In this document: positions 28,298-44,248 of the stretch, one piece after another | Position numbering within the stretch: the first letter of the stretch is position 1 | How the letters are laid out: each line of letters begins with the position of its first letter | Assembly (NCBI RefSeq): GCF_011388195.1 | Contig: NZ_CP049990.1 | Span: 930,001 to 994,000, forward strand | Length of the DNA stretch: 64,000 nucleotides | Direction: 5' to 3' | From: Pusillimonas sp. DMV24BSW_D | Lineage (GTDB): Bacteria > Pseudomonadota > Gammaproteobacteria > Burkholderiales > Burkholderiaceae_B | Program-made: the position numbers and the translations under genes | The notes under the pieces: generated by a model | Database searches by the model: none | Told to the model about the DNA's origin: nothing | The model's input: the letters and a program-made list of their open reading frames with translations, nothing else

Positions 28298-29545
28298 ATG
28301 ATGACTTCCACTGTCGCGTCCGCAAGCGGCGCTTCAAACCGATTGGCTTATCTGGTCGTAATTGCCGGTGTCGTAGCCGGTTTGCATGTTTGGAAGCTGC
28401 CCCCATCCTTGCCTGTGTTGCAGGCACAATTGGGTCTGACGCTGGTGGAGTCGGGCTTTTTGCTTTCCATGGTGCAAACAGCGGGGATGTTTTTGGGCCT
28501 GATTGTCGGTTTGTTTGCCGAAAAAATAGGTTTGCGCCGCTGTGTCCTTATTGGCTTAACACTGTTGTCGATTGGTTCGTTTTTGGCGCCTACCATTGAT
28601 ATGCGCATTGCCGTATTGGGTTTTCGCGTCATGGAAGGGGTGGGCTTTCTGATGGTAACCATGCCGGCCCCGGCATTGATTCGGCGCCTGGTAGACACGG
28701 CGTTTTTAAGCCGTATTCTGGGAGTTTGGGGCGGCTATGTGCCTATTGCAACAGTCATTGCCCTGTTGGGCGGCTCGCTGATTCTAAGCTTAAGCGGCTG
28801 GCGCGCCTTGTGGTGGATCTTGTCGATACTGACGGCGGTCGTCGCCTATATCGTGTGGCGTAAGACTCCACCCGACCCCGCCCCGGAGGCCCAGAAACAA
28901 AGTTCGAAACCGGGCACGCCGCTAGAAAAGAAGCCTTCGTTTCTCGCCCTGGCAATGGAAACCCTGAGCTCTTTGAATGTCTGGTTTTTGGGTTTATGTT
29001 TCGCGGTGTATTCCGGTCAATGGATGGCCATTGTTGCCTTCATGCCTACCATTTATGTGGAAGCTGGGTTTTCCGGCTTTATGGCGGGTGCCATGACAAC
29101 CGTCATTGCTGCGGGCAATGCCGTGGGCAGTTTCTCGGCAGGACGTTTGTTGCACCGTGGATGGAAGCCCCACTGGTTGAATAATTTTGCTTTCGTGGCC
29201 ATGGGTGTGTGTGCCTTCCTGGCTTTTGCTTTTCCGATTCCAACCGCATTGCAATTGGCGCTGATTGTTTTGTTTTCGGCGACGGGCGGCCTGATTCCCG
29301 CCACTTTGTATTACATGGTAATGGAGTTGGCTCCTTCGCGTCGTACGTTGGCGCCGACCATGGGCTGGATGCAGCAAGGAATGGCAATGGGACAGTTTTC
29401 CGGGCCTCCCTTGGTTGCGTGGGTGGCCACGCTGGCCGGCGGATGGTCGATGGCCTGGACCATTCCCGCTGTGTGTTCGCTTATTGGCCTGGCCATTTCC
29501 ACCCGCCTTGGACGCCAGTTTCTGGTGCGTGTACAGGGGCGCTAG
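28298..29545 (+). CDS. MFS transporter
   Basis: This 415-residue permease has 12 predicted helices and MFS-type loop residues (FAEKIGLRRCVLIGLTLLSIG after helix 2, GRLLHRGWKPHWLNNFAF at the equivalent site of the second half). The phrase LRRCVLIG matches the usual helix 2-3 motif only loosely. Substrate unknown. The ATG at 28298 has no clear ribosome site, and another ATG follows directly at 28301. The end overlaps the convergent TetR gene by four bases. Confidence 0.82.
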   Translation: MMTSTVASASGASNRLAYLVVIAGVVAGLHVWKLPPSLPVLQAQLGLTLVESGFLLSMVQTAGMFLGLIVGLFAEKIGLRRCVLIGLTLLSIGSFLAPTIDMRIAVLGFRVMEGVGFLMVTMPAPALIRRLVDTAFLSRILGVWGGYVPIATVIALLGGSLILSLSGWRALWWILSILTAVVAYIVWRKTPPDPAPEAQKQSSKPGTPLEKKPSFLALAMETLSSLNVWFLGLCFAVYSGQWMAIVAFMPTIYVEAGFSGFMAGAMTTVIAAGNAVGSFSAGRLLHRGWKPHWLNNFAFVAMGVCAFLAFAFPIPTALQLALIVLFSATGGLIPATLYYMVMELAPSRRTLAPTMGWMQQGMAMGQFSGPPLVAWVATLAGGWSMAWTIPAVCSLIGLAISTRLGRQFLVRVQGR

Positions 29546-30153
29546 TTCAACTGCTCAACCGGCAAATGCTGCACGCCATTCACAAACGTATCCACTATTA
29601 ATGCAGAAAGATCTGCCGGCTTAATGGAGCCTGAAGGTTTGTACCAAACGTGTATCCAGTTGGTCATGCCAAAGTACATCATGGCCAGCGCAGTGACCTT
29701 TTTACGGGTCATTTCCACATCGGGGCGCAAGGCTTGAATCAATATTACCGCCCGGTTGATAATGCGTTCCTGAATAACAATAACCGACCGCATTGCAGGG
29801 CGATTCAAATAGCGCATTTGCGTGAGCAGCACGGTTACCTCTTCCGGAACGCGAATGTATTCGCTGACCAGAGTTTGGGTGAACGCGCGCAGTTTTTTTT
29901 CGGCGCTCTGCTCTTGTTCAACCGCCGCTTCAACCTTCCAGGCCAGGTCTTCAATTTTCCAGCTGATCAGGCTATGCAGGATCGCGTGTTTTGAACGGTG
30001 ATAATGATAAAGCGACGATTTTTTCATGCCGCATTGTTCGGCAATGTCTTCCAGCAGGGTTTCGCTATAACCTTTGCGGGCAAATAGAACCGCCGCCGCT
30101 TTCAGAATATCTTTCTTGCGGTCTTCATAATCCAGTGCTCGGGTGCGCGCCAT
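29542..30153 (-). CDS. TetR family transcriptional regulator
   Basis: This 203-residue protein has the TetR DNA-binding head at residues about 10-60 (RKKDILKAAAVLFARKGYSETLLEDIAEQCGMKKSSLYHYHRSKHAI), including the usual LYYHF-like ending LYHYH. The C-terminal helical domain would bind a ligand. It is 18 bases downstream of the GST gene on the same strand, so it is probably the last gene of the - strand catabolic run and may control it in response to a CoA ester or aromatic acid. The operator is not known. Confidence 0.9.
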   Translation of the reverse strand: MARTRALDYEDRKKDILKAAAVLFARKGYSETLLEDIAEQCGMKKSSLYHYHRSKHAILHSLISWKIEDLAWKVEAAVEQEQSAEKKLRAFTQTLVSEYIRVPEEVTVLLTQMRYLNRPAMRSVIVIQERIINRAVILIQALRPDVEMTRKKVTALAMMYFGMTNWIHVWYKPSGSIKPADLSALIVDTFVNGVQHLPVEQLN

Positions 30154-30171
30154 AAAGTTGTGCCTGTTAGA

Positions 30172-30834
30172 TTAGGACGTCGTGTTCTGGTTGCGATTGT
30201 GCCATGCCTGGCGCAAGTCGTTGTCTGCGCGTTCGATACTTGGGCGGGTCAATGCGTGTTTAAGGTAATTGTGAATGTTGGGTAGTACTTCGCTTAGAAC
30301 ATCGGGCTGTTTAAGTGCGCGCAGCGCGTTGTTGACGGTTGTTAAGTGAGCCCACGCGACCGCGTCGGCGTGGGTAAAGTTGTTGCCGCCAATCCATGGG
30401 CTAAATAATGTGCGCCGGCCTAATATACGCAAGCCATGCGAAATTTCCTGGAGCGCATCATCGGCCAGGTTTTGCCGGCACGGGCGGCCCCAAAAAGCAG
30501 CGGGGTAAAGTCTGCGGGCGGGCAGTTCAATGTACAACTCAATCGTTTGAATCAGTTCCCGGCAACGTGCTTTTTCCATCGCGCGGGCGGGGTAGCATGA
30601 ATAGTTTGGTGTTGTGTCCTCAAGGTATTCTACGATAGCCTGCGACTCGTAAATAAAGCCGTCTGCGGTTTCCAGGAACGGAATTTTTCCACTTGGGCTG
30701 CCCTTGTCGGGCCATTGTTCGCCGGGCAAATGCAGCACTTCCGTGAAGGGGCGCTCCAATTCGATCAAAGCGATTTTCACCTTGTTGTAGTAGTTGCTTA
30801 GGGGGGTGCCGAAAAGGCGTACGGGTTGGCGCAT
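30172..30834 (-). CDS. Glutathione S-transferase family protein
   Basis: This roughly 220-residue GST has an N-terminal domain RLFGTPLSNYYNKVKIALIELERPF, with the cis-proline segment GKIPFLETADG and the glutathione contact ESQAIVEYLED. The helical domain contains IGGNNFTHADAVAWAHL. The ATG at 30834 follows GGGAGA and starts nine bases after the CoA-ligase stop; an in-frame upstream start at 30882 would lie inside that gene. Zeta-class relatives isomerise maleyl compounds; this protein lacks the clear SSCxWRVRIAL signature of that class, so its reaction stays open. Confidence 0.82.
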   Translation of the reverse strand: MRQPVRLFGTPLSNYYNKVKIALIELERPFTEVLHLPGEQWPDKGSPSGKIPFLETADGFIYESQAIVEYLEDTTPNYSCYPARAMEKARCRELIQTIELYIELPARRLYPAAFWGRPCRQNLADDALQEISHGLRILGRRTLFSPWIGGNNFTHADAVAWAHLTTVNNALRALKQPDVLSEVLPNIHNYLKHALTRPSIERADNDLRQAWHNRNQNTTS

Positions 30835-30842
30835 TCTCCCCC

Positions 30843-32744
30843 CTAGTTGCAAACCAGGCAGTCGCCGGCCGAGGCCTTGCATTCATACAACCGCTTTACC
30901 GCGTGGGCACGCTTTTTCAATACGCCTGATTGATTAATGTAGCCTTTGTCGGTGATTTCATTGTCATCAATGCTGGGCGGTGAATCCAACAACAAGGCGC
31001 GACAGATTCGGGTGCTGCTGCCTGGGTAGTTTTGGTTGTGTCGCTCTATGCCTTGTGCCAGTTGTTCAAGTAACGGCGGGTACGTAGTAAGCGCTTGGTC
31101 GGTGGCATCTTTCAGTTCCGGGAACCGTTTGCGGATTTGATGCGCATTCAGGAATAGAAGGGCGCCCAGTTGTTCGGCGTTGTGTCCGGTTAGAACCGCG
31201 TCGGAAACAAAGGGGTGAAGCTGGGGTAATAAATGCCCGCGAACGGTGGCCACCGACACCCAGGTCCCGCTGGTCAGCTTGAAGTTTTCCGACATGCGTC
31301 CGGCATACACCAGGCCTTGGGTAGGGTCGTTTGGGTTCACCCATTGCACTGCGTCGCCGGTTTTCAAGAACCCTTCTTCGTCGAAACTTTTTTCATTGGC
31401 CTGCAGGTCGTTAAAGTAACCCGGCGTGATGTTGGGCCCGCGAAAACGAATCTCGTATCGATCCTCGTTTGGAATCAGCTTGGCCTCAACCCCTGGTGCA
31501 GGCAAGCCCAGAGTCCCCAGTATTTGGGGTGGCCACCATATGAGTGTGGCGGGCATGGTTGTTTCGGTTGAGCCCAGCGAAGCGGAAATAGGGATGCGTT
31601 CACCGGTTGCCTGCGCGCTGAGTTGTTCGAGTTTCAGCAATGTTTGAGTGGAGAGCGCCGCTCCGCCGTAAACGATAATTTGCAGGTTGGTAAAAATATC
31701 TTTTGCGGCCTCGGGATTTTCTTCTATGGCCGCAACCAGCATATCAAGCCCCCGCGGTACGTTCACCATGACATTCGGTTTAATCTCGCGAAGGTGTCGA
31801 ATGGTCCGGTCGATGAGTTTGGGTACAGGCTTGCCATCGTCCAGGTACAGCGTGCCGCCATGACGCAATACCATGGCTAACGCGCCGTGTGCGCCGGCCG
31901 TGTGGTTCCATGGGAGCCAGTCGAGCATAATGGGCGGTTGTGTTTTCAGGAAAGGCCAGACTTGGTCCCACAGTACGCCCGAGGCAATGATATTGCGTTG
32001 CGTCATGATGACCGCTTTGGGGCTGCCTGTGGATCCAGATGTCAGCAACAGCCGTGCAATCGTATCGTGGTTAACCTTATTGAAGGCTTCATCAACCCTG
32101 TTTGTCGGCGTCGTTGCGAATGCATCATTTAATTGTGCGGCATGGGTAATTGGGCCGGGGCGATGGCACAATATTTTGGCGTGGGGCGCGTGCTTTTGCG
32201 CAACCTGAATAGCCGTTTGAAAACGCTCACCCTCTTCGGCATAAATAAGCGCGGGAACAAAGCGTTGTGTAAGGTCGGCAATTTTGCCGCAGGTTTTTGA
32301 CATTAAGCTGTAAGCGGCCGACAAGGGCATGACCGGAATGCCGACCTGCATGGCGGCAAACTGCAAGAGCGCCTGGTTAATACTGTTTTCGCTTAAGATA
32401 AAAACCGGCTGTTCGGCGGGCAGAGACTGATTTAACAACCATTGCGATAACGCATTCACTTTTGCCAGCGCTTGTGCGTAGCTTAATGTGTTCCAATTGC
32501 GCTCGTCGGCTGCCGGCTCCGCCAGAAAGATCTGGTCAGGTCGGTTCCGGGCGTGCAAGCGTAAATATTCTCCAATCTGCTGAACCGGTAGGGGAGCCAG
32601 GGGCTGCCGATTGGTCAGTAGCTGGGCGCCGTCTTCGCGGGCGGTCAGCGCGATGTTAACCGGGGCGAACTCAAGCTTTCGGAAGGGGGCATGAGGGCGT
32701 TGATTCTGAATTGCATTCAGCGTGTCTAACTCTTCACTGCTCAT
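30843..32744 (-). CDS. Feruloyl-CoA synthetase-like acyl-CoA ligase
   Basis: This roughly 633-residue member of the adenylate-forming family has the AMP-binding loop LLLTSGSTGSPKAVIMTQRN, the second motif SLGSTETT and the GFLKTGDAV aspartate region. The whole C-terminal half (MSENFKLTSGTWVSV, LLPQLHPFVSDAVLTGHN) reads like Fcs proteins, which activate ferulate and other hydroxycinnamates with CoA and ATP. No enoyl-CoA hydratase/aldolase or vanillin dehydrogenase is nearby, so the substrate may be a different aryl acid. The start is the ATG at 32744, overlapping the upstream gene by 11 bases; the frame's earlier start at 32852 would lie well inside that gene. Confidence 0.85.
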   Translation of the reverse strand: MSSEELDTLNAIQNQRPHAPFRKLEFAPVNIALTAREDGAQLLTNRQPLAPLPVQQIGEYLRLHARNRPDQIFLAEPAADERNWNTLSYAQALAKVNALSQWLLNQSLPAEQPVFILSENSINQALLQFAAMQVGIPVMPLSAAYSLMSKTCGKIADLTQRFVPALIYAEEGERFQTAIQVAQKHAPHAKILCHRPGPITHAAQLNDAFATTPTNRVDEAFNKVNHDTIARLLLTSGSTGSPKAVIMTQRNIIASGVLWDQVWPFLKTQPPIMLDWLPWNHTAGAHGALAMVLRHGGTLYLDDGKPVPKLIDRTIRHLREIKPNVMVNVPRGLDMLVAAIEENPEAAKDIFTNLQIIVYGGAALSTQTLLKLEQLSAQATGERIPISASLGSTETTMPATLIWWPPQILGTLGLPAPGVEAKLIPNEDRYEIRFRGPNITPGYFNDLQANEKSFDEEGFLKTGDAVQWVNPNDPTQGLVYAGRMSENFKLTSGTWVSVATVRGHLLPQLHPFVSDAVLTGHNAEQLGALLFLNAHQIRKRFPELKDATDQALTTYPPLLEQLAQGIERHNQNYPGSSTRICRALLLDSPPSIDDNEITDKGYINQSGVLKKRAHAVKRLYECKASAGDCLVCN

Positions 32745-33762
32745 TTGTATTGCCCGTTTCGGTTTGAAAGTTAAGGAGTATTTTGCTGCCCTTTTCGGCG
32801 CAGGAAAAGCGGGACCATATCGGTGTGAAGTCGTGTGCGGGCATGCTTTCATAGGGCAATGGCGTTAACACGCCGTTTGCCATTAACTGAAACATGTCGG
32901 CCATTTGGCGGGTGAACGATGATGTCTCTTGAAAGAGCAGGCCGCCGCAATAAACGCCTGCCAAAGATGCACCTTTAAGCAGCAATAAGTTGGTTGAAAT
33001 TTTTGGTATGTCGCCGGCGGCAAAGCCCACAACCAATAGTCGGCCGCGCCAGGCCAGGTTGCGCACCGCCGCTTCGGTATAGAAATCACCAAGGGGGTCG
33101 ACGACGATGTCGGCACCGTGGCGACCCAGCACCGTTCGGATTCCCGCTTTCAACTCCGCTTTATCGATTATTGTGGTCGCAGCAGGGAGGGTGTTGTCTT
33201 TGATTATCAATTGGTTTGTGTCGTGGCGTTCAACGGTCGCGACGCGGGCGCCGAAATGTTCTGCGATTTGAATACAGGCTTTGCCTACCGCTCCGTTCGC
33301 TCCCAACACTAATACGCGCTCGCCCGCTTTCAATTGGGCACGATCGATCAGGCCGTGATACGCAGTTAAATGTGAATTGATTGAGGCCACGGCATGTGCC
33401 TGGCTTAAACCAGGCGGTATGTGAACCAATCGATTGGCTGGAGCGGTCAGCTGCGATGCCCAGGCCCCAACCACGCCGCTTGAAACGACTTGATCGCCGG
33501 GTTTGAATTGCGTTACGTTTGTACCGGCTTCCAACACCACTCCTGCGGCATCAAGTCCCGGGATAAAGGGGAGGTTGGGTTTGTCTTGGTAGCGACCCTG
33601 AATCAAAAGATGGTCGGTGAAATTGAACGCTGCATAATGCACTTGCATGCGCACATCATTTTCACCCAGCGGCGCCGCTGCGGGCAGGGCCACTGTTTGG
33701 ATGTGTGGAGGCGCGCCGTATGCATTGCATAGAAGCGCAAATAGCTTGGATGCGTAAGTCAT
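32734..33762 (-). CDS. Zinc-independent MDR-family quinone oxidoreductase-like protein
   Basis: This 342-residue medium-chain dehydrogenase/reductase has an N-terminal GroES-like domain (HYAAFNFTDHLLIQGRYQDKPNLPFIPGLDAAGVV) and a Rossmann domain with VLVLGANGAVGKACIQIAEHFGA. The cysteine and histidine ligands for catalytic zinc are absent, as in NADPH:quinone oxidoreductases and enoyl reductases of this superfamily. It may reduce an enone or enoyl-type intermediate of the pathway, or a quinone. It follows the binding-protein gene after a 77-base gap holding a strong hairpin. Confidence 0.85.
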   Translation of the reverse strand: MTYASKLFALLCNAYGAPPHIQTVALPAAAPLGENDVRMQVHYAAFNFTDHLLIQGRYQDKPNLPFIPGLDAAGVVLEAGTNVTQFKPGDQVVSSGVVGAWASQLTAPANRLVHIPPGLSQAHAVASINSHLTAYHGLIDRAQLKAGERVLVLGANGAVGKACIQIAEHFGARVATVERHDTNQLIIKDNTLPAATTIIDKAELKAGIRTVLGRHGADIVVDPLGDFYTEAAVRNLAWRGRLLVVGFAAGDIPKISTNLLLLKGASLAGVYCGGLLFQETSSFTRQMADMFQLMANGVLTPLPYESMPAHDFTPIWSRFSCAEKGSKILLNFQTETGNTNEQ

Positions 33763-33781
33763 GGTGTTGGCTTGGGAGGGG

Positions 33782-33807
33782 GGATCCGGCCTGGCGCAGC
33801 CGGATCC
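33782..33807 (-). other. Intercistronic hairpin (9-bp perfect stem)
   Basis: GGATCCGGC and GCCGGATCC form a perfect stem around an 8-base loop between the binding-protein gene and the quinone-oxidoreductase gene. No T run follows on the transcribed strand. A role in protecting the binding-protein message or reducing expression of the enzymes downstream is inferred. Confidence 0.6.
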
Positions 33808-33839
33808 GAAACTGCAGAAAACGGATGGAGGGTTGGTGC

Positions 33840-34985
33840 TTACTTAACCAGTTTGAACTCGCCGTTCTCAATAGTAAGAAGCTCAACGCCACGCTCGTCA
33901 AAGCCGCTGTGGTCTTCCGGTGTCATGTTGTAAACACCTTGAGTGCCGGCCAGATCTTTGACTTTTTCCAGCTCGTCGCGCAAGGCAACGCGGAATGCCT
34001 CAGTGCCTGGTTCGCCTTTCTTCAATGCAGCGGGAACGGCTTGTTCGAGCAGCAAGCCGGCATCGTACATGTTGCCACCGAAGGTTGCGGGGACTTCACC
34101 GTATTTGTCTTTGTATGCGTTGATGTACTCAAGCGCGACCTTCTTGGCGGGGTTGCTGTCGGGAGCGTCTTCAGGTGCCAGCATCAGACTGCCACCCAGA
34201 ATCGTACCCTCAACTTTTTTACCCCCAAGCTTAATGAACTCTTTCAAGGCCGCGCCGTGAGTTTGATAGAAAGTGCCCTTGTAGCCCATGTCGGTGAGTG
34301 TGGCCTGCGGTAATACGGCCGGGCCGCCGGGCGCCGCAATAAGCACGGCATCGGGTTTGGCCGATAGCACTTTCAGAGCCTGGCCGGTTACCGATGTATC
34401 GGGGCGCTTGAAGCGCTCGTTGGCGACGATTTCAATACCGTATTTTTTGGCGTAATCTTGTGCAACTTTGTACCAGGTCTCCCCGAAAGTATCGCCGGTG
34501 CCAATGAAGCCAACGGTTTTCTTGCCCGTTTCCTTCATGTGCTTGAAGAGTTTGTCGGCAACCAGGCCGTCATTCTGGGTTGTTTTGAAAACCCAGCGTC
34601 GTTTGTCATCCATAGGAAGCACAATTGCAATGGTGCCTACCGGCGCCAGGGTGGGGACTTTTGCTTCGGCGATGAAGTCGAGAACCGCCATTGCGTTGGG
34701 TGAGCTTGAAGGGCCTACCAAAGCGTCAATGTTTTCTTCCGAAATCAGTTTTTTGATGAGTGTGACGGTATTGCTGGGGTCACTGGCGTCGTCGAAAGTG
34801 ATGTACTCCACTTTTTCGCCCGCAATTTCGGTTGGCATTAAAGCGACAGTGTTCTTTTGCGGAATACCAATTAATGAAACCGGCCCGGTTGCCGACGAAA
34901 TAACACCGATTTTGATGTCGGCCTGGGCAGAGGCGGCAAAAGCAAGCCCGGCTGCCAAAGCCAGAAGTTTGGAACGCAGTTGCAT
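33840..34985 (-). CDS. Orphan Liv-type ABC substrate-binding protein
   Basis: This 381-residue periplasmic protein has the signal peptide MQLRSKLLALAAGLAFAASAQA and mature start DIKIGVISSATGPVSLIG. The two lobes contain IDALVGPSSSPNAMAVLDFIAEAKVPTL and VPATFGGNMYDAGLLLEQAVP. No permease or ATPase gene is adjacent, so it must use another Liv transporter, perhaps one of the two in this window. Similar binding proteins near aromatic catabolic genes bind benzoates or phenylpropanoids; here the CoA ligase downstream makes that attractive. The ATG has AAGGAGACACTCC upstream. Confidence 0.9.
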   Translation of the reverse strand: MQLRSKLLALAAGLAFAASAQADIKIGVISSATGPVSLIGIPQKNTVALMPTEIAGEKVEYITFDDASDPSNTVTLIKKLISEENIDALVGPSSSPNAMAVLDFIAEAKVPTLAPVGTIAIVLPMDDKRRWVFKTTQNDGLVADKLFKHMKETGKKTVGFIGTGDTFGETWYKVAQDYAKKYGIEIVANERFKRPDTSVTGQALKVLSAKPDAVLIAAPGGPAVLPQATLTDMGYKGTFYQTHGAALKEFIKLGGKKVEGTILGGSLMLAPEDAPDSNPAKKVALEYINAYKDKYGEVPATFGGNMYDAGLLLEQAVPAALKKGEPGTEAFRVALRDELEKVKDLAGTQGVYNMTPEDHSGFDERGVELLTIENGEFKLVK

Positions 34986-35047: not shown

Positions 35048-35533
35048 TTATACAGAATCGTGCATGGCGCTAGCATACTCCCCTTTCCAGTACACGAGGG
35101 GGGCGCCGTCGCGATGGGAAAAGTCGTTCACAATACCTAGCACAATGTCGTGATCACCCGCTTCTACCAAGGCGTGAGTGGAGCAGACGAATGTGGCCAG
35201 GGCACCGGGGATAACCGGCAGGCCGCTGTCGGACCATTCACAAGCCAAGCAATGAAAACGGCGCTCGATGGGGCCGGTCATTTGCTGGGCAATATGGCGT
35301 TGCTCTTTAGCCAGAATGTTGATAACGAAACGCTTCGCCTGGCAAATGGTGTTATGTGCCGTGGACCCGCGAATGACATTCCAGCTAATCAACGGAGGAG
35401 CCATCGATACACTGGCGAACGAGTTGATGGTGAGCCCGTAGGGTTCGTTCTCTTCGTTCAGTGTGGTGACAACGGCGATGCCGGTAGCGAATCGCCCGAA
35501 TGCGTGACGCAATTCCGGTTTGGTTTCAATCAT
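35048..35533 (-). CDS. Flavin reductase (HpaC-like), partner of the monooxygenase
   Basis: This roughly 161-residue protein belongs to the flavin reductase-like family: LRHAFGRFATGIAVVTTLNEENEPYGLTINSFASVSMAPPLISWNV, then FVINILAKEQRHIAQQM and a GDHDIVLGIV histidine-aspartate motif. Such proteins reduce FMN or FAD with NAD(P)H and pass the free flavin to a monooxygenase. The start is ATG at 35533 (a GTG at 35536 is also possible), with AGGAGG upstream and an 8-base overlap with the monooxygenase gene. The coupling supports a two-component oxygenase. Confidence 0.9.
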   Translation of the reverse strand: MIETKPELRHAFGRFATGIAVVTTLNEENEPYGLTINSFASVSMAPPLISWNVIRGSTAHNTICQAKRFVINILAKEQRHIAQQMTGPIERRFHCLACEWSDSGLPVIPGALATFVCSTHALVEAGDHDIVLGIVNDFSHRDGAPLVYWKGEYASAMHDSV

Positions 35534-36785
35534 CACGTTCGCCCTCCTTGTAGAGCAGGCCACGGCCCAGGCGGTCGATGCAGATTTCAGATGTCCAGGG
35601 CAGCATGAGCGCGCCGCAGCGGCTGTCGCGATACATGCGTTCCAGCGGGAAGGTTTTAAGCATGGCTTGACCGCCGCATACGCGCACTGCCGCCGAGCAA
35701 ATTTCGGCACAATATTCCATAACAGTATACTGACACGCGTAGGCGCGCATGCGTTCTTCACGCGAGGGGCTGCGCTTGAATTCCGAGGTGGCCCGGTGGA
35801 ACAAAGCCCACGCCTGTTGCAGCTTAATGTACATTTCGGCGATGCTGTATTGTTTGGTGGGGTACATGCGTCGTTTAACGTTAACGCCGGCGACTTCACC
35901 ACGCAAATAGGCAACGGCGAAATCGTACGCTGCCTGAGCGAGCCCCATGTACGTGGGGGTGAGCGTCATGAACATATGCGGATATTTTGAGGCCGCTTTT
36001 ATGTATACGCCGCGCGGCATCAGTTGTGCGGTGTCGGGCACAAATACATCTTTGAAAATCAAGGTACGGGACACGGTTCCACGCATGCCCATTGGGTCCC
36101 AGTCGCCCACCACCGATACGCCGGGCGCATTGGCCGGAATGGCCATGAACATCGTGTCGGCTAACGTGGCGCCCGGAATGTCTTCAGTACAGAGCACGCC
36201 GTAGTAGTCTGCAGAGCCGGATAACGAAGCAAAAATTTTCTTGCCGTTAATGACCCAACCGTCGCCTGAACGTGTGGTGATGGTGCCGAAGGGGTGTTTG
36301 CCTGCCGCGGCCCCACTGCCTTCTGAAAAAGGTTGTGAATAGATTTTGCCTTCGAGCATGTTCTTGTAGTGAATTGCGCGATTGTGCTCGTGGCTTTCAC
36401 GTTGTTCGGGTGTGAGCTCAAGCGCATCCACCATGTCGGCTGTCCAAAGCGAATTGGCGTTATGCATGTTGAACGTGTTGGCCGTGCTGGCGCAATAGTA
36501 TGAGATGCGCGTCGCCACCAAAGCATATGTTCGGTAGTCGGCACCCAGTCCCCCCAGGCGTTTGGGCACGCACAGGGCCAGGAACCCCATGCTTTTCAGG
36601 TCGTTGTAATTCTCGGTAGGGAAGCTGGCTTCAAGGTCGTGTTTGAATGCGCGTTCCGCCCATTTCACGCCGCACTCATCTACTTTGGCGATCAGGTCTC
36701 TTTGCTGCTCGGTAAGGGGGGCGCCGTTGAACAGGGCATTGCTGTCGGCGGAGTGGGCGTATTCATTCAGGTAGCTGCTGTCCAT
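35526..36785 (-). CDS. Flavin-dependent monooxygenase of acyl-CoA dehydrogenase fold
   Basis: This 419-residue protein has the acyl-CoA dehydrogenase fold (GFLALCVPKRLGGLGADYRTYALV, GDGWVINGKKIFASLSGSADYYGVL, DPMGMRGTVSRTLIFKDVFVP). At the place of the dehydrogenase YEGT motif the sequence is LPWT (residues 395-398), so the catalytic glutamate of many dehydrogenases is missing. That, and the overlapping flavin reductase gene, fits the group D monooxygenases (HsaA, DszC, HpaB-like) that hydroxylate aromatic or heterocyclic rings with reduced flavin. In this operon it would act before the NicX-like ring-cleavage enzyme. An ordinary dehydrogenase with a glutamate elsewhere remains possible. Confidence 0.75.
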   Translation of the reverse strand: MDSSYLNEYAHSADSNALFNGAPLTEQQRDLIAKVDECGVKWAERAFKHDLEASFPTENYNDLKSMGFLALCVPKRLGGLGADYRTYALVATRISYYCASTANTFNMHNANSLWTADMVDALELTPEQRESHEHNRAIHYKNMLEGKIYSQPFSEGSGAAAGKHPFGTITTRSGDGWVINGKKIFASLSGSADYYGVLCTEDIPGATLADTMFMAIPANAPGVSVVGDWDPMGMRGTVSRTLIFKDVFVPDTAQLMPRGVYIKAASKYPHMFMTLTPTYMGLAQAAYDFAVAYLRGEVAGVNVKRRMYPTKQYSIAEMYIKLQQAWALFHRATSEFKRSPSREERMRAYACQYTVMEYCAEICSAAVRVCGGQAMLKTFPLERMYRDSRCGALMLPWTSEICIDRLGRGLLYKEGERDD

Positions 36786-36810
36786 TAGAGGGTCCTGTTG
36801 CGTGTTTTGC

Positions 36811-37626
36811 TTATGCCGCGCTGCGACATGTTGAGGTACATATAGAGGCCAGAAAATCGGTCACGACACGGTTGAATGTGTCGGGCGACTCGAGATTGGC
36901 CATGTGTTTGGTTTGTTGGAATTGGTGCAGGCGAGCGTTGGGCAGTCGGTTTGCCATGCGCTGCATGCCTTTTGGGGGTGCCTGGTCGTCCAGTTCACCG
37001 GCCAGCAGCAATGTGGGAACCGTGATGTTGCCCAGTTCTGTTTTGCGGTCGAACGTGACCAGTAGCCGCATGTAATCTATATAACGTTCACGTTCGATAG
37101 CACGTGCCGATAATGTTGCAAGGTTGCGCATCGCGGGTGATGTTCTTGGCCCCAGAAATTGGTCGAGCAGTACCGGCGCGGCTTGGGAAAAGCTGTCGAA
37201 TTGCGACAAAGGCTCGGTGCGTTGACGAAGAAATGTCTCTTTCCATTCCGGGTCGGTGCTGCCAAAGCCTGCGCTTGTTGATGAGAGTATCAGGCTGGCC
37301 ACGCGGCAGGGGAAATGATGGTAGAACTCTTGTGCCACCATGCCGCCGATTGAGTGGCCCAGAATGTGTGCCTTGTTGATGCTTAAAGTGTCCAGCATGT
37401 TGGCCAGCGCAGCCGCCAGGTTGCTCCAGCTTAAAGCCGGCAACAAGGGCGACTGGCCATAGCCGGGCATTGTCCAGGCAATAACCTGACGCGATGGGCC
37501 AAATGCATCTAATTGCGGCAGCCAAACACTGGCAGTAGAGCCCATGCCGTGAAGCAGGATTAATGGCGTTCGGTTATGGCCCGACGCCAGCCAGGTAGGT
37601 ACGGTATTCACTGGAAGACGTCGCAT
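36811..37626 (-). CDS. Alpha/beta hydrolase, candidate amide/ester hydrolase of ring-cleavage product
   Basis: This 271-residue alpha/beta-hydrolase has an oxyanion segment LILLHGMGSTASVW, nucleophile elbow GHSIGG (Ser92), acid LLAGELDDQAPP (about residue 220) and a histidine in TKHMANLESPDTF (about 247). It overlaps the NicX-like gene by 19 bases. In nicotinate and picolinate degradation the product of 2,5-dihydroxypyridine cleavage, N-formylmaleamate, is deformylated by an alpha/beta hydrolase (NicD/PicE). The position here suggests an analogous C-N hydrolysis, but the sequence alone does not separate it from meta-cleavage C-C hydrolases or lactonases. AAGG precedes the ATG. Confidence 0.82.
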   Translation of the reverse strand: MRRLPVNTVPTWLASGHNRTPLILLHGMGSTASVWLPQLDAFGPSRQVIAWTMPGYGQSPLLPALSWSNLAAALANMLDTLSINKAHILGHSIGGMVAQEFYHHFPCRVASLILSSTSAGFGSTDPEWKETFLRQRTEPLSQFDSFSQAAPVLLDQFLGPRTSPAMRNLATLSARAIERERYIDYMRLLVTFDRKTELGNITVPTLLLAGELDDQAPPKGMQRMANRLPNARLHQFQQTKHMANLESPDTFNRVVTDFLASICTSTCRSAA

Positions 37627-38645
37627 AGCTTGCCTTCATCAACGATCGCCACGCCATCCAGTTCAACGGTGCAATTGCGCATGGGCAGGTCGAAATGACC
37701 CAGTGTGTGTCGCCCCGCCACATCATTTGCACCGGTTGAGTATAGGAAGTTGCCCGCGAACGCGCGCAGTTCGGTGCCATTCGTATCGTTTTTGTCGAAC
37801 ATCTGCAAGGCGTCCCAGCGTGCCTGTGGGTTCATGCCCCAACCTACATGGCTTACTGCGTAGGCATCGCGGTCTTGCCAGGCCTCCATGTAACTGCGCA
37901 TGAGTTCTGCATCGAGCCCGTTGCCTTCAATGCGGGTGATGTAATCGTTTTCGATGTGCAGGGTAACCGGCGTCTCCAGGTAACGTTTGAAAGTAAGGTT
38001 GACGTCGCCAATGTTCAGTACCAGCGCCCCATTTACCGACCCGCTGGACGGAAATGCAAGGCAAAGGCCGCCCGGCCAATGCTGGACAAGACCAGGACGG
38101 TCGGCGCCGCCCCACACGCCGCCGACTTTGGCGCCCTCCAGGTTGATGTCAAGTGACGTTCCGGCGGCCGAAGACACGCGCATGTGCTTGCTTTTTGCCA
38201 GCATGCGTACGCCGTTTTTAACGGGTTTGGTCAGGTCCAGCGTGGTGGTGAGGCGTTCGAGTATTTCCGGATGCTCGTTGCTGACCATTAATACACGTGC
38301 GCCGGATTCAAGAATATGGGGTAACTCAGGTGAATGCAGTAAGCCCTCGACCGTTAGATCGACGACCAGCCCTTGCCCCGATAGCGCGTTGATTACCGGG
38401 GGCATGTTTTGAACAACATGCGAGGCGCCTGTGGAGCGAACGGGCACGGGTGTGGTAACGGGCAGAGAGGGTACCGTGATTTGTATGGGAACCGCACCCA
38501 TGCGGGCTAGCGCAAGCTCAGCCAGTTGTACGTTAATGCTTCGGCTTTCCGTTTCACACAGCAAACGAACGATTTCGCCTGGCTCGACTTTGCATTTGCG
38601 GAAAACGGTTTCGAATGCCTGAATCCACTTCTCTTGGACTTTCAT
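37608..38645 (-). CDS. NicX-like (2,5-dihydroxypyridine 5,6-dioxygenase family) ring-cleavage enzyme
   Basis: This 345-residue protein has the aminopeptidase-T-like fold and strongly resembles NicX, the Fe(II) extradiol-type dioxygenase that opens 2,5-dihydroxypyridine. Shared phrases are SHVGWGMNPQARWDAL, DARAF-like ELRAFAGNFLYSTG, and GHFDLPMRNCTVELDG. NicX of Pseudomonas putida binds iron with His265, His318 and Asp320 as I recall; here His266, His317 and Asp319 stand in the same contexts, and the QHWPGG histidine is also kept. The N-terminal 90 residues differ more, so substrate may differ. The ATG at 38645 follows AGGAT; an in-frame upstream start at 38675 lacks a site. It is the first gene of the - strand run. 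Confidence 0.83.
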   Translation of the reverse strand: MKVQEKWIQAFETVFRKCKVEPGEIVRLLCETESRSINVQLAELALARMGAVPIQITVPSLPVTTPVPVRSTGASHVVQNMPPVINALSGQGLVVDLTVEGLLHSPELPHILESGARVLMVSNEHPEILERLTTTLDLTKPVKNGVRMLAKSKHMRVSSAAGTSLDINLEGAKVGGVWGGADRPGLVQHWPGGLCLAFPSSGSVNGALVLNIGDVNLTFKRYLETPVTLHIENDYITRIEGNGLDAELMRSYMEAWQDRDAYAVSHVGWGMNPQARWDALQMFDKNDTNGTELRAFAGNFLYSTGANDVAGRHTLGHFDLPMRNCTVELDGVAIVDEGKLCDVFQ

Positions 38646-38789: not shown

Positions 38790-40073
38790 TTATTTCAACG
38801 CATTTGGAATCCACAGGGAAATGTCGGGTACGTAGGAAATGACAAGTAACGAAACCAGGTAAACCAAAATAAAGGGAATAACGCCACGTACTACTTTTCC
38901 TACTGAAACATTGAATATGCTGGTACTGACAAACAGGTTCAACCCAAACGGCGGGGTAAACATGCCAATGGCCAGGTTAACCGTCATGATTATGCCGAAA
39001 TGAATCATGTCTATTCCGGCGGCAACGGCAATGGGCAGCAGCAAAGGAACCAGCACCACGATGGCCGAGTTGGGGTCCATGAACATACCGGCGATCAACA
39101 GAATCAAGTTGAGCATGAGCAAAATCATGAATGGGCTCATGTTCCAGCCGGTGAGGGCTTCAACCATGGTGTCGGGGATGTTCTCGATAACCAGCACTAC
39201 AGAGAATACTGAGGCGGCGGCGACAATGGTGAAGATTTTTCCGGTAAGCAGTGCAGCTTCAACCGCCACTTCCCAGACACCTTTGAACGACAGGTCGCGG
39301 TAAATGCAGGTGGTGACGACTAATGCGTAGATACTGAGTACCATTGAGGCTTCAGTCGGCGTGAAAAATCCGGAATAGATGCCGCCAAAAATGATAACCG
39401 GCGCGCCCAGCGTCCAGGCTGCACTTTTGGTTTCCCGCCACACGGCTGCGGTGTCCCATTTGCCGGCTTCCGCTGTGATGGAGTGGTGAAGGGCATACCA
39501 GATGCAGTACAACGTAATCAGGATGCCGATCAATATGGCTGGGCCGATACCCGCAAGAAACAAGTCGCCCACCGAAACGGAGGCGACCGCTCCGTAAAGA
39601 ATCATGGTGATGCTGGGCGGCACAATGACTGCAATCGCGCCCATCGAGGTAATTAATCCGAGCGAAAAACGCTCGCCGTAACCGCTTTGCCTTAAGCCTG
39701 GATAAAGTACCTTACCGATCCCCGCCACCGTGGCGGTGCTTGAGCCTGATATTGCCCCGAAAACCTCGCTGGCTACAATCGTCGTGACGGGCACGCCTCC
39801 GGGAACGCGGCCGAGTAAAACGGTTACCCAGTTAATGAGCCGGTTCGACATGCCGCCTCGTACCATCAGTTCTGCAGCAAAAATAAAACCCGGCACGGCC
39901 AGCAATGCATAGACATTCAAGCTACTGAACATGCGTGAGGCCAACATGTCGGGTGGAATGCCTGCACCCGTTAATGTTAACAGGGCAAAGCCTGCAGATA
40001 GAAAAACCAGCCACAAAGGAAAGCCCAATATCAGCAGCAGAATAACAATAAGGGTGGCGCCGACGGAGATCAT
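38790..40073 (-). CDS. dctM: TRAP transporter large permease DctM
   Basis: This roughly 427-residue integral membrane protein of the TRAP DctM family has about 12-13 helices and the phrases GFPLWLVFLSAGFALLTLTGAGIP, PLFVF-like LLAVPGFIFAAELMVRGGMSNRLINWVTVLLGRVPGGVPVTTIVASEVFGAISGSS, and FTPPFGLNLFVSTSIFNV near the end. It uses the sodium gradient to import the acid delivered by DctP. The ATG at 40073 gives the standard N-terminus MISVGATLIVILLLILGFP and overlaps dctQ by four bases; the longer frame upstream runs through dctQ. A terminator follows. Confidence 0.93.
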   Translation of the reverse strand: MISVGATLIVILLLILGFPLWLVFLSAGFALLTLTGAGIPPDMLASRMFSSLNVYALLAVPGFIFAAELMVRGGMSNRLINWVTVLLGRVPGGVPVTTIVASEVFGAISGSSTATVAGIGKVLYPGLRQSGYGERFSLGLITSMGAIAVIVPPSITMILYGAVASVSVGDLFLAGIGPAILIGILITLYCIWYALHHSITAEAGKWDTAAVWRETKSAAWTLGAPVIIFGGIYSGFFTPTEASMVLSIYALVVTTCIYRDLSFKGVWEVAVEAALLTGKIFTIVAAASVFSVVLVIENIPDTMVEALTGWNMSPFMILLMLNLILLIAGMFMDPNSAIVVLVPLLLPIAVAAGIDMIHFGIIMTVNLAIGMFTPPFGLNLFVSTSIFNVSVGKVVRGVIPFILVYLVSLLVISYVPDISLWIPNALK

Positions 40074-40642
40074 TTTTGAATGCCTTGTTGTATGTTGATA
40101 ATGTCGGTGGCGGAATCGGGTTCGTTGGTACGATTGCCGAGAATATCGACCCCCCACAACAGATAGGCAAGCGCGGTTAACCCCAAGCCCACGGGAATGG
40201 CTGCGTAGGCCAGCCACACGGGTATGTAGCCGCTCAGGCTCATATCGTTAAAGCGATATGCGGTATATGAGAAGCCCCAGCCCATATAGGCGAAGTAACC
40301 GATAAGAACAACGCCCAATAGTGCGGAAGCGATGTTGATGAGTTTGCGGATCGGGCGGGATACATGCGCGTAGAAGACGTCGATGCTGATATGTTCGTTG
40401 CGACGGGCCAGAACCGCGGCGCTTAGAAAAACCGACCATACGACCAGGTAGCGCGAAACTTCTTCAACCCACGGATAGGGCATGAGCCCAACCTCACGCA
40501 ACGCAACTGAGATAAAGACGGAAAAAATCATCAGCAAGAAGCTTAGGCCGGCCAGAAACTTAAGCAGGGCAAAGCATGCGCGGTCGATGCGCGAGAATAG
40601 GCCTGGTGATGACGGCGGTGCTGAGTTGTCGGGTGGGGTCAC
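40070..40642 (-). CDS. dctQ: TRAP transporter small permease DctQ
   Basis: This 190-residue protein has four hydrophobic helices. Helix 2 carries the DctQ mark PYPWVEEVSRYLVVWSVFLSAAVLARRNEHISIDVF. The N-terminal 20 residues are proline- and serine-rich. It binds DctM to form the translocating unit. It follows dctP by 110 bases containing a strong hairpin. Confidence 0.92.
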   Translation of the reverse strand: MTPPDNSAPPSSPGLFSRIDRACFALLKFLAGLSFLLMIFSVFISVALREVGLMPYPWVEEVSRYLVVWSVFLSAAVLARRNEHISIDVFYAHVSRPIRKLINIASALLGVVLIGYFAYMGWGFSYTAYRFNDMSLSGYIPVWLAYAAIPVGLGLTALAYLLWGVDILGNRTNEPDSATDIINIQQGIQK

Positions 40643-40706
40643 GATAATGTCCGAAATGAAGACGTGGGTTCAATAATGTCGCTCGCCGGTGCGCGCGAGT
40701 CAAGAA

Positions 40707-40736
40707 CGCCCCCAAACCTGATCAGGAGAGGGGGCG
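40707..40736 (-). other. Intercistronic hairpin between dctP and dctQ
   Basis: CGCCCCC pairs with GGGGGCG, with CCT/AGG above an AAA/AGA internal loop and a GATC tip. It begins 16 bases after the dctP stop on the - strand and has no T run. It probably keeps binding-protein mRNA above permease mRNA; this role is inferred. Confidence 0.6.
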
Positions 40737-40752
40737 CTATCATGCCAAAATA

Positions 40753-41793
40753 TTACTTGGCCAGTTTCTTGATATCTTCTTCAAGCAGTTTGAGCATTTC
40801 TGCTTTGGCGGGGTTCTTTGCCACTTCGGCCCACACGCCTTCTTTGTTCAGTTTTTGAAGGGCGGCGCGGTCGGCGTCAGTTAACTCGATAACGGTGAAC
40901 TTATCATTTGAAGCCAACAGGTTAAGCGCTTCATTTTGCTCGTCAACGTACTCCTGAGTTCCCAGTGCCTCTGTTTCTTTACCGGCTTCATCAACCGCTT
41001 TCTTCAGGTCGTCGGGTAAAGAGTCGTACCAGGCTTTACTAACCGCAATGTATTGCGTAAGCACGATGTGGTTGGTTAGCAGGACGTTAGGTGCTTGCTC
41101 ATGATATTTCAATCGCACTGTTACGGCGGCGGGTAAGTCGAATCCGTCCAGCACACCTTGCTGAATTGAGGTGTAGACCTCGGGCAAGGACATATGAATG
41201 GCGCGTGCACCCCAATCATTGACGGTCTGGGTGTGCTCTTGGCCGCCAATGGTACGAATCCGCTTATCCTGCAGATTCTCCATTACGCTTTTGCTCTTGT
41301 CGTAATCGCGCAGATAGATCTGGTTTGGTCCCAAGCCAAACAAAGACACCACGTGGAAGCCGCGTTCGTCGGCAAGTTCCTTAATCTTGTCGCCGGCCTG
41401 ACCTTCCATGATATTGGTGATGTTTTCGATTTGCTCTTCTGCATTCTTGCCTGGGAAAAGCCATGGCAGTGTCAGTACGCCGGCCTGGGCCACAAACTGG
41501 CTCAGGTAACCGCTGGGGTTGATGTTGCCTTGAATGGAACCCAGTCGCAGACCGCGCATCACTTCGTCGTTACTGCCTAGCGAACCACCTGAATAAAGCT
41601 TGCCTTTGATTTTGCCGCCCGATTTTTTCTCGACCAGGTCGATAAAAATCTGGCCGCTGCGCTCTTGTGCGTCATTTGAGGTAATATTGCCAACCCGCAT
41701 TTCGTAGGTTTCTTCCGCTGCGTGTGCGGTCATGGCCATGGGCGCTGCCAGGCAGGCGCTTAACAGCAATTTAGATAAAAGCTTTGTCTTCAT
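40753..41793 (-). CDS. dctP: TRAP transporter substrate-binding protein DctP
   Basis: This 346-residue periplasmic protein has the signal peptide MKTKLLSKLLLSACLAAPMAMTAHA and mature start AEETYEMRVG. The DctP marks are SGGKIKGKLYSGGSLGSNDEVMRGLRLGSIQG, and the ligand-arginine segment LQDKRIRTIGG, in which the arginine binds the substrate carboxylate in known members. The STxLPEVYTSIQQGVLDGFD-like phrase follows. The ligand would be an organic acid; its identity cannot be read. The ribosome site AGGATGAGACA precedes the ATG. The BVMO gene ends 66 bases upstream on the same strand, so read-through is possible. Confidence 0.93.
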   Translation of the reverse strand: MKTKLLSKLLLSACLAAPMAMTAHAAEETYEMRVGNITSNDAQERSGQIFIDLVEKKSGGKIKGKLYSGGSLGSNDEVMRGLRLGSIQGNINPSGYLSQFVAQAGVLTLPWLFPGKNAEEQIENITNIMEGQAGDKIKELADERGFHVVSLFGLGPNQIYLRDYDKSKSVMENLQDKRIRTIGGQEHTQTVNDWGARAIHMSLPEVYTSIQQGVLDGFDLPAAVTVRLKYHEQAPNVLLTNHIVLTQYIAVSKAWYDSLPDDLKKAVDEAGKETEALGTQEYVDEQNEALNLLASNDKFTVIELTDADRAALQKLNKEGVWAEVAKNPAKAEMLKLLEEDIKKLAK

Positions 41794-41859: not shown

Positions 41860-43515
41860 CTAAGCTACTTTGTTGGAAGATTGTGTTGCCGCATTGAGTG
41901 TGTAACCTTCATAGCCGTCTTCCGCGACCTTCAAAATACGTTGGTAGTAATTGCCGACTCCACCAACATACGGCATAAATACAACCGGTTTGCCGGGTGT
42001 GTTCGAGCCATAAAACCACGTGTCTTTTGAGTGGGCGTAAAGCGTTCGGTTGGCTGCTTCGGTTACATGCTCCGTCCAGGTGTCCTGAGCCTCGACAGAG
42101 GCTTCAATGGTGGCGATATTATGGGCCTCCATGTACTTTGCGCAATCGGTTACCCATTCCACGTGTTGTTCAATGGATGTCACCATATTGCTGAATACCG
42201 ACGGGCTGCCGGGGCCGGCGATGATGAACATATTGGGAAAGCCGTTCACAGTCATGCCCAGGTAAGTGCGCGGGCCCGCCGCCCACTCGTCTTTAAGCCG
42301 GCGACCGTTACGTCCCACCGGGTTAATACGGTTCATCGCGCCGGTCATGGCGTCGAAACCGGTGGCGAAAATAATCATATCCAGTTCGTACTCGGTGCCG
42401 TCTTGCAGCAATACGCCTTTCGGGGTGATGCGGTCGATGGCGTTTTTACGCACATTCACCAGCGATACGTTGTCACGGTTAAACGTTTCGTAGTACTGCG
42501 TTCCTGAACATAAACGTTTAGTGCCGATGTAAAGCTCTCCAGGGGGGCACAGTGCTTCCGCGGTTTCCGGATCTTTCACAATGCTGCGGATTTTGTCGCG
42601 CACAAACTCGGCCGCCTCATGATTCACTTCGGGGTCGGTGAGAATATCCTTGAAGGCGCGCATCATGTAAAGGCCACCCAGGTCCCAGCGCCGTTCCAGT
42701 TCGGCCCGGCGTTCTTCGTCGCTAACCTCTTTACCCGATTGATGGTTGCTGACCTGGTTGTGGCCGAACCCCGACTGGCGGGCAAACTTGCGGCGTTCAG
42801 GGTAGGTGGCTTTCCATTCTTTTTCCACATCCGGTTTCATGGGGTGGTTTTGCGCCGGCATGGTGTAATTGGGTGTGCGCTGGAATACATATAAATGTTT
42901 CGCGTCTTGCGCAACAATGGGAATAAGCTGAGTCGCAGACGAGCCAGTCCCAATGACGCCTACCCGTTTTCCACTGACATCCACACCTTCTTTTGGCCAA
43001 TCGCCTGTATGGAACCACTGCTTTTCAAAGGTTTCCAGGCCTTTCATACTGGGAACCTGGTGCACCGACAAAACACCGGTTGCCATCACTGCATACTTGG
43101 CTGAGAACGTTTCGCCTTGTTCGGTTGTAATAAGCCAACGGTTCGACTCTTCGTTGAATGTGGCTCCGGTAACGCGGGTATTCAACTGTATATCTTTTGC
43201 CAGGTCGAAGCGGTCCACGACATGGTTGATATACGCCAGGATTTCAGGTTGGCTTGCGTAGCGCTCCGACCACTTCCATTCCTGTTGCAGCTCGTTTGAG
43301 AACGAAAAAGAGTAATCAAGTGATTCGATATCGCATCGGGCGCCTGGATAGCGATTGTGATACCAGGTACCACCCACGCCGCCGCCCGCTTCCAGTACGC
43401 GTACCGTCATCCCCATTTTGCGGAATCTATAAACGGCGTATACGCCTGCAAACCCAGCACCTACAACGATAGCGTCGTAATTCTGGACAACGGGATCCTG
43501 CTGTTTGTCCTGCAT
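41860..43515 (-). CDS. Flavoprotein monooxygenase of the Baeyer-Villiger (cyclohexanone monooxygenase) group
   Basis: This 551-residue protein has two Rossmann motifs (GAGFAG, residues 19-24; GTGSSA, 189-194), the GGVGGTWYHNRYPGARCDIES motif and FATGFDAMTGAM, all typical of type I BVMOs that turn ketones into esters or lactones with NADPH and oxygen. The fingerprint FxGxxxHxxxWP appears as FEKQWFHTGDWP (163-174), so the conserved glycine is a lysine (Lys165). The gene lies directly upstream of dctP on the same strand. A cyclic or aryl ketone is the expected substrate type, but the altered fingerprint may mean different coenzyme behaviour. Confidence 0.88.
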   Translation of the reverse strand: MQDKQQDPVVQNYDAIVVGAGFAGVYAVYRFRKMGMTVRVLEAGGGVGGTWYHNRYPGARCDIESLDYSFSFSNELQQEWKWSERYASQPEILAYINHVVDRFDLAKDIQLNTRVTGATFNEESNRWLITTEQGETFSAKYAVMATGVLSVHQVPSMKGLETFEKQWFHTGDWPKEGVDVSGKRVGVIGTGSSATQLIPIVAQDAKHLYVFQRTPNYTMPAQNHPMKPDVEKEWKATYPERRKFARQSGFGHNQVSNHQSGKEVSDEERRAELERRWDLGGLYMMRAFKDILTDPEVNHEAAEFVRDKIRSIVKDPETAEALCPPGELYIGTKRLCSGTQYYETFNRDNVSLVNVRKNAIDRITPKGVLLQDGTEYELDMIIFATGFDAMTGAMNRINPVGRNGRRLKDEWAAGPRTYLGMTVNGFPNMFIIAGPGSPSVFSNMVTSIEQHVEWVTDCAKYMEAHNIATIEASVEAQDTWTEHVTEAANRTLYAHSKDTWFYGSNTPGKPVVFMPYVGGVGNYYQRILKVAEDGYEGYTLNAATQSSNKVA

Positions 43516-44173: not shown

Positions 44174-44248
44174 GTTGCGTGTACTCCTAATGTCTATAAA
44201 AAAGATTAATGAAAAGGTAAGGTGAAAAAAGTAATTGGTTGTTCAACG

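Follow-up and report, generated by a model that had tools for sequence, protein, structure and literature searches.

The closest described systems to the locus considered here are the nicotinate and picolinate (nic/pic) pathways and the Hsa pathway of steroid catabolism. The former are not known to employ a coenzyme A (CoA) ligase and use hydroxylases of types other than the one described below, while the latter consists of a two-component flavin monooxygenase (FMO) of the acyl-CoA-dehydrogenase fold, a reductase, a ring-cleavage dioxygenase and an alpha/beta hydrolase. For NicX of Pseudomonas putida KT2440 (PDB 7cn3/7cnt/7cup), the sections of the structure paper drawn upon here describe the iron ligands His265, Ser302, His318 and Asp320, the substrate contacts His105, Glu177 (near the nitrogen of the ring and the 2-oxygen) and His189, the loss of activity upon bulky substitution at Cys76, and the lack of any obvious full-length structural homologue (PMC7910607). 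The present analysis concerns an operon in a 64,000-nucleotide stretch of the 3.19 Mb genome of Pusillimonas sp. DMV24BSW_D (the window; G000:C1:930001-994000, where G and L labels denote genomes and loci, respectively), in which the gene of a NicX-like non-heme Fe(II) ring-cleavage dioxygenase (37608..38645, minus strand) is followed by those of an alpha/beta hydrolase, an FMO and a flavin reductase. An earlier note on this DNA had listed these four genes and proposed that they cleave a hydroxypyridine-like ring; its observation is confirmed, while its interpretation is partly supported. The locus combines genes in a new way and represents a new branch of a known kind of enzyme; it is not the standard dihydroxypyridine pathway. 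The conserved gene set probably serves to import, tag, hydroxylate and open an aromatic ring other than the nicotinate type.

Family, iron site and pocket of the NicX-like protein

In phmmer, the NicX-like protein (345 residues) matched NicX of strain KT2440 (7cn3) over residues 8-338 (E 6.8e-58); apart from two short chance hits (E 0.8), the PDB gave nothing else up to E 1. The protein shares 35-38% identity with NicX and with the NicX paralogues of its own genome. Pfam gave no match up to an E of 10, nor did NCBIfam up to 0.001. Foldseek searches with an AlphaFold2 model of the protein (predicted local distance difference test, pLDDT, of 92.6) returned NicX 7cn3 as the top match (template-modelling, TM, scores of 0.92/0.91), followed by the M29 aminopeptidases AmpT and PepS/AmpS (TM 0.53-0.60 by query). 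Of the residues that had been picked out earlier as iron-binding, His266 aligns with His265 of NicX, His317 with His318 and Asp319 with Asp320, all three being published ligands; the fourth, Ser302, corresponds to window Ser303, and Arg293 corresponds to window Arg294.

The pocket differs from that of NicX, both in the window protein, which keeps His105 and His189, carries Val in place of Glu177 and is changed at Cys76, Val175 and Glu308, and across its clade. An alignment of 133 NicX-family rows (with some genomes counted twice) places 116 rows on the side of the window protein and 17 on the canonical side. The four iron ligands and Arg293 are kept in 116/116 clade rows; Glu177, in contrast, is found in none of the 116, the position being occupied by Gly, Val, Ser, Thr, Asn or Ala, while all 17 canonical-side rows have Glu or Gln there. 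Glu308 is likewise absent from all 116 rows (mostly Val/Thr, with an aromatic residue or His in some), Cys76 is replaced by Gly in all 115 clade rows having that position, Gly predominates at position 175 (with Arg in 8 rows), and His189 is replaced by Tyr in 9 rows. A midpoint-rooted tree of 55 rows separates 12 canonical rows (7cn3 included) from 43 clade rows with a support of 100/99, one long canonical-side row (G000c_L022) being flagged as unsure. The protein is a true NicX relative which by descent is not a 2,5-dihydroxypyridine enzyme. With Glu177 lost and Cys76 and Val175 changed, the pocket of the main group (as distinct from the Tyr189 sister group described below) would suit a larger, less polar ring, although Arg at 175 and aromatic residues or His at 308 in some rows indicate that not all of the changes are toward a small residue.

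Gene organisation, partner enzymes and conservation

The genes of the NicX-like protein, hydrolase, FMO and reductase are spaced by -19, +25 and -8 bases, the last value being the overlap of the flavin reductase gene with the FMO gene. The hydrolase (36811..37626, minus strand, with an alternative GTG start at 37611) has a GHSIGG motif and a Ser-Asp-His triad that is kept in the clade rows examined. Its nearest family models are of the PcaD type, with HsaD and BphD lower and all below cut-offs, and it is 26% identical to the PcaD of the genome. Identity to the hydrolases beside canonical NicX genes is 20-24% (over at least 250 residues), and the window hydrolase lies outside their group in a tree whose long branches are flagged by the tree itself; these neighbours (found in 12 of 16 loci searched) are NicD-type by position and stood in for a NicD reference. 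The protein encoded at 35526..36785 (minus strand) has the acyl-CoA dehydrogenase fold by Pfam, and its alignment shows LPWT where short-chain acyl-CoA dehydrogenase (SCAD) has YEGT, the Glu of which we take to be the catalytic base of acyl-CoA dehydrogenases. Twelve LPWT-type motif patterns cover 63 of 67 FMO homologues, and the dehydrogenase Glu occurs in none. This fold without its catalytic Glu identifies the protein, by sequence, as a predicted two-component FMO working with the flavin reductase at 35048..35533 (minus strand; PF01613), which is FerA/HsaB-like in its family-model matches, all below cut-offs.

Five further minus-strand genes (29542-34985) belong to the cassette in near relatives; hence, the extent assumed earlier (35048-38645) holds for the four genes and is too short for the cassette. 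The first of the five encodes a periplasmic binding protein of the CouP-like aromatic-acid family (33840..34985), which is closest to 3sg0 (381 bits), 4dqd (370) and then CouP (284). As described in the portion of the CouP report available, that protein binds coumarate, ferulate and caffeate via Arg197/Thr102/Ser222 and His309/Gln305 (PMC3610893). As read by eye from the alignment with CouP 3tx6 (chain numbers shifted by 23), the window protein keeps the carboxylate-binding Arg197, while Thr102 is changed to Ser and Ser222 to Pro, and the 4-OH ligands His309 and Gln305 to Asn and Thr; with Arg kept and the other contacts changed, it is predicted to bind an aromatic carboxylic acid without coumarate-type 4-OH recognition. 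The remaining genes, assigned largely by family match, encode a quinone-oxidoreductase-like protein of the medium-chain dehydrogenase/reductase (MDR) kind (32734..33762), an AMP-forming acyl/aryl-CoA ligase of the PRK12582 type (30843..32852; 682 bits against a cut-off of 777), a glutathione S-transferase (GST)-fold protein (30172..30882) and a TetR regulator (TetR_C_24; 29542..30153). The ligase open reading frame overlaps the preceding gene by 119 bases; since its homologues are 633-635 residues long, the true start is probably downstream of 32852. PRK12582 is presumably the feruloyl-CoA synthetase (FCS) family.

A contig scan for NicX-like relatives gave at least 583 encoded proteins, of which the best 80 were kept as loci, so that the sample favours close relatives; the nearest named relative of the locus among these 80 is Neopusillimonas maritima 17-4A (98%). 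The nine-gene order is intact in G002, G020, G003 and G001 and on one contig of G021, on which the NicX-like gene is truncated by the contig start. G008 has the cassette without the oxidoreductase only, the G004 locus ends at a contig end, G038 retains the NicX-hydrolase-monooxygenase part, and three loci at 57-59% retain fewer cassette genes. Downstream partners were counted in the 65 of the 80 loci with at least 4 kb of downstream sequence. The hydrolase is found within 1.5 kb in 56 of these and the monooxygenase within 3.5 kb in 55; a ligase of about 506 residues (LIG506) occurs in 43 and the PRK12582 type in eight, the two being non-orthologous, and hydrolase, monooxygenase and ligase are all present downstream in 44. 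Among the other 21, some have a partner missing or different, and L075 and L110 lack all three. Conversely, the nine canonical-paralogue loci (L021, L022, L034-L040) gave no match to the hydrolase, monooxygenase, reductase or ligase (E 1e-10, 40% coverage). In many relatives the four genes, or the NicX-like, hydrolase and monooxygenase genes plus a CoA ligase gene, keep this order, which makes the arrangement more than chance: the operon is real and conserved, as had been supposed for the flavin hydroxylase, the NicX-type iron enzyme and the hydrolase. A search of the open-licence literature, judged by titles and the beginnings of abstracts, found no paper recognisable as an account of such an operon.

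The partners vary between groups. In the Tyr189 sister group, with copies in G010, G021 and G004 as well as G143, G307, G364 and G414, a single-component flavin adenine dinucleotide (FAD) hydroxylase replaces the FMO where the flanks show it; at L194-L197, L031 and L032, this is a PRK06126-type enzyme, with MhpA-type matches below cut-off. On plasmids of Ensifer and Aminobacter, the NicX-like gene is accompanied by FMO, hydrolase, TetR and glutamine-synthetase-like genes, and an APC permease and a flavin reductase are encoded close by. As the hydroxylase and the activating enzyme vary, the NicX-like protein and the hydrolase form the most constant pair across groups. The NicX-like genes at L142 (Ensifer adhaerens) and L143 (Aminobacter aminovorans) are labelled 'peptidase M29', and the Aminobacter plasmid locus has extra cupin, FAH and carbon-nitrogen hydrolase genes, with tyramine oxidase subunit B on the opposite strand. 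At L075, L108 and L110, an acyl-CoA dehydrogenase-type gene follows the NicX-like gene instead of the hydrolase and FMO, with ABC-ATPase-like genes around it by eye.

The genome of the window also harbours NicX-family genes of the canonical side. One, at G000:C1:861.5-864.4 kb (L021), has Glu177, His189 and Phe at 105 and lies beside a hydrolase; a neighbouring protein is amidohydrolase-like by eye, with no NCBIfam match, and the locus is perhaps a picolinate cluster. Another, at G000:C1:680727-681719 (L022), has Gln177, and a gentisate 1,2-dioxygenase-type cupin scoring above cut-off lies about 6 kb away. A cupin of the same type, below cut-off, adjoins a NicX-family gene at L188:14551-16688.

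Upstream of the cassette in the window, all on the minus strand, are accessory genes of a tripartite ATP-independent periplasmic (TRAP) transporter (DctM, DctQ and DctP; 38790..41793) and a gene of a Baeyer-Villiger-type flavin monooxygenase (41860..43515, by family match). Both were considered and set aside as operon parts, because among the 11 loci with an orthologue close copies occur in G002 only. Relatives of the TRAP and of the Baeyer-Villiger gene grouped with those of the window in 2 of the 80 loci, and L032 has a TRAP permease match at 29%. Further upstream are type VI secretion genes (43685-45865, minus strand), namely Hcp/TssD (43685-44173) and TssA (44249-45865), both above NCBIfam cut-offs.

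The ring probably opened by the module

Anthranilate metabolism, as seen in the neighbours of the module in relatives, is the best lead for the identity of the ring. The kynB, kynU and kynA genes, whose products convert tryptophan into anthranilate, border the module in three loci, namely L112 and L119 (both Pandoraea contigs) and L192 (G345); in L192 the three of them score past NCBIfam cut-offs. PRK08255 (link to ANTHRANILATE), a fused FAD hydroxylase/old-yellow-enzyme whose architecture we take to be that of 2-aminobenzoyl-CoA monooxygenase/reductase with anthraniloyl-CoA activity, was traced in an order sample of 399 genomes. Twenty-one of these have the NicX-like clade, 16 in the main group (10 genera) and five in the Tyr189 group, and many are fragmented, so that links across contig ends go unseen. 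PRK08255 lies within 20 kb of the module in 6 of the 16 main-group genomes (G038, G088, G171, G208, G212 and G265; 4 of 10 genera, with G088, G171 and G208 belonging to one genus), compared with 0 of 16 for BoxB, the control for both co-occurrence and linkage. Among the 80 loci, five show a PRK08255 match of more than 250 bits, two of which (L094 and L105) are G208 and G171 again. At L076, NicX-like, hydrolase, FMO, ligase and PRK08255 genes are consecutive on a single strand, the last two matches being about 40 bases apart; the next genes are homologues (62% and 50%) of the acyl-CoA dehydrogenase and CoA ligase from the PRK08255 cluster of the window's own genome; at L069, the PRK08255 part comes after the FMO.

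Genome-wide co-occurrence was tried as proof and set aside, physical linkage alone being retained. PRK08255 is encoded in 16/16 main-group genomes and in 57 of the 399 overall, and among BoxB-positive genomes in 16/16 of the main group against 25/59 (p 2e-5, relatedness uncorrected). Nevertheless, BoxB itself is present in 21/21 NicX-clade genomes (75/399 overall), so that the co-occurrence is confounded and mostly marks aerobic aryl-CoA degraders. Tryptophan dioxygenase is found in 11 of the 16 main-group genomes and in 73 of the 399.

The reading that we favour, tentatively and with somewhat less than even probability, is that the operon serves the catabolism of an aromatic acid, a benzo-fused N-heteroaromatic ring of the indole type being opened toward anthranilate. 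The CouP-like protein would bring the acid in, the CoA ligase would activate this acid or else an acidic product of the route, and the two-component FMO would hydroxylate the ring. The NicX-like Fe(II) enzyme with O2 would then open the ring beside the new hydroxyl, as for 2,5-dihydroxypyridine (HO-C=CH-NH giving COOH and N-CHO), and the hydrolase would split the ring-opened product. Anthranilate or its CoA ester, which we infer to be the product rather than the substrate, would finally enter the 2-aminobenzoyl-CoA route (PRK08255). A narrower version is a previously unassigned aerobic route in which the new NicX-branch enzyme acts on a hydroxylated indole acid and opens its pyrrole ring, giving an N-formyl or 2-aminobenzoyl product that leads on to anthranilate; this version is somewhat unlikely. 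An indole-3-acetate route to anthranilate via 2-formaminobenzoylacetate was reported in 1961 and figures among pathways described as 'not well classified so far' (PMC11630574).

Several observations weigh against an indole-type ring opened toward anthranilate. The position of the hydrolase outside the canonical-NicX group leaves a deformylase role without support from kinship, the best NCBIfam matches of the FMO are acyl-CoA dehydrogenases (below cut-off), and its match to the indole oxygenase XiaF is distant (38 bits). PRK08255 is absent from all five Tyr189-group genomes of the order sample, the co-occurrence is confounded as stated, and no PRK08255 or kyn gene was present in the stretches examined around the FAD-hydroxylase and glutamine-synthetase-like groups. 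In the window's own genome, the PRK08255 cluster is separate, about 255 kb from the module, and tryptophan dioxygenase is absent; the NCBIfam name for PRK08255 is salicylyl-CoA 5-hydroxylase. Finally, in five loci (L199, L200, L202 and L203, all of one genus, and L114) the module has an MhpD/HpaH-like hydratase as its neighbour.

The last observation would suit a possible, if doubtful, alternative, in which a carbocyclic aromatic acid (a phenylpropanoid or the like) is degraded by a meta-cleavage-like pathway. Following HsaABCD/MhpABC logic, the FMO would yield a diphenol, the NicX-like enzyme would replace the extradiol dioxygenase, and the hydrolase would split a C-C bond. This account is kept as a close rival on the strength of the hydratase neighbours, the PcaD/FerA/Hsa resemblance of hydrolase and reductase, and the lean of both ligase kinds toward feruloyl-CoA synthetases, since the best PDB match of LIG506 is feruloyl-CoA synthetase 8wev (359 bits) and PRK12582 is presumably a family of such synthetases. 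The CouP family of the binding protein, the PRK06126-family hydroxylase and the below-cut-off MhpA-type matches of the sister group point the same way. However, the hydratase scores far under its family cut-offs (108-124 against 351-409 bits, two proteins tested), no lower-meta-pathway aldolase or dehydrogenase was recognised (no model search being aimed at them), and the PRK08255 and kynurenine-operon neighbours are left unexplained.

It is unlikely that the module degrades anthranilate or hydroxyanthranilate (or a CoA ester) itself, with activation by the ligase, hydroxylation by the FMO at a position para or ortho to the amine, and cleavage by the NicX-like enzyme. Kynureninase of the neighbouring operon yields anthranilate, and a 5-hydroxylated anthranilate or salicylate would share the para pattern of 2,5-dihydroxypyridine; for an Alcaligenes strain, the literature cites an indole-anthranilate-gentisate pathway that involves an unreported enzyme (PMC6221969). 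Against this, such a route would duplicate PRK08255, which all 16 main-group genomes of the order sample possess, and LIG506 is much nearer the feruloyl-CoA synthetase than the anthranilate-CoA ligase 4wv3 (153 bits). It was judged unlikely that LIG506 or the PRK12582 ligase acts as anthranilate-CoA ligase, L076 and the window's own genome having a separate ligase in the PRK08255 cluster.

The hydroxypyridine-like substrate proposed earlier, hydroxylated and cleaved as in the nic/pic pathways by way of another hydroxylase, is distinctly unlikely. It would accord with the identity to NicX and its paralogues and with the retained iron ligands, His105 and His189; nevertheless, Glu177 and Glu308 are absent and Cys76 is replaced throughout what is a separate clade, the hydrolase is of a different type, and a NicX that has Glu177, with a hydrolase of its own next to it, is already encoded elsewhere in the genome. 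The 'N-heterocycle' of the earlier note is not supported in the hydroxypyridine sense, while a broader reading of the term, as a fused ring of which indole is an example, is preferred though unproven. The pocket, tree and hydrolase results also lower the plain NicX/NicD maleamate pathway; no maleamate amidase or maleate isomerase was recognised among the proteins scanned for families, no family-model search being aimed at them. An M29-type aminopeptidase, suggested by the 'peptidase M29' name of 4 of the 40 plasmid relatives listed and by the next-best structural matches, is almost certainly wrong and was rejected, given the absence of a PF02073 (M29) match (E up to 10 for the protein and up to 1 in the genome, where 5 of 14 control genomes do match), the far closer structural match to NicX, the kept iron ligands and the catabolic operon context.

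Significance and comparison with known systems

The locus reveals a second, widespread branch of the NicX fold with the same iron site and another pocket, which has at least 583 encoded relatives, a four-gene core recurrent among the best 80, and a presence hidden in part by the 'peptidase M29' annotation of some members. Once the substrate is identified, a ring-opening pathway of bacteria from soil, freshwater and the sea could be named, and it could be judged whether pyridine-type cleavage reaches fused rings. A pyrrole-opening route (for example, from indole-3-acetate or indole-3-carboxylate) would, if true, extend over Proteobacteria, Acidimicrobiia and SAR324 and supply genes for the 2-formaminobenzoylacetate route of 1961.

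Known indole routes offer a partial parallel. The iif system is described as aerobic indole oxidation toward anthranilate by a two-component oxygenase, IifA being a cofactor-independent oxygenase (PMC6221969), and the iad indole-acetate pathway ends in anthranilate (PMC11630574). In the parts of these two articles available, no NicX-like enzyme is mentioned for iif/ind or iac/iad (PMC6221969, PMC11630574), whereas the module of the window has one. The 2-aminobenzoyl-CoA (PRK08255) pathway and the kynurenine operon stand beside the module, or in one strand run with it, in several relatives, but are not adjacent to it in the window's own genome. With the Hsa system, the window shares HsaA, HsaB and HsaD family matches (below cut-offs), while its dioxygenase is of the NicX type and not of the HsaC type; with the nic/pic pathways, it has in common a NicX-family enzyme and a hydrolase. 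As for NicX itself, the full-length fold, the four iron ligands, Arg293, His105, His189 and an adjoining alpha/beta hydrolase are common to both, whereas the window enzyme belongs to a separate clade with Glu177, Cys76, Val175 and Glu308 changed, its partner hydrolase is of another group, and its operon carries an acyl-CoA-dehydrogenase-fold FMO, a CoA ligase and an aromatic-acid-type binding protein.

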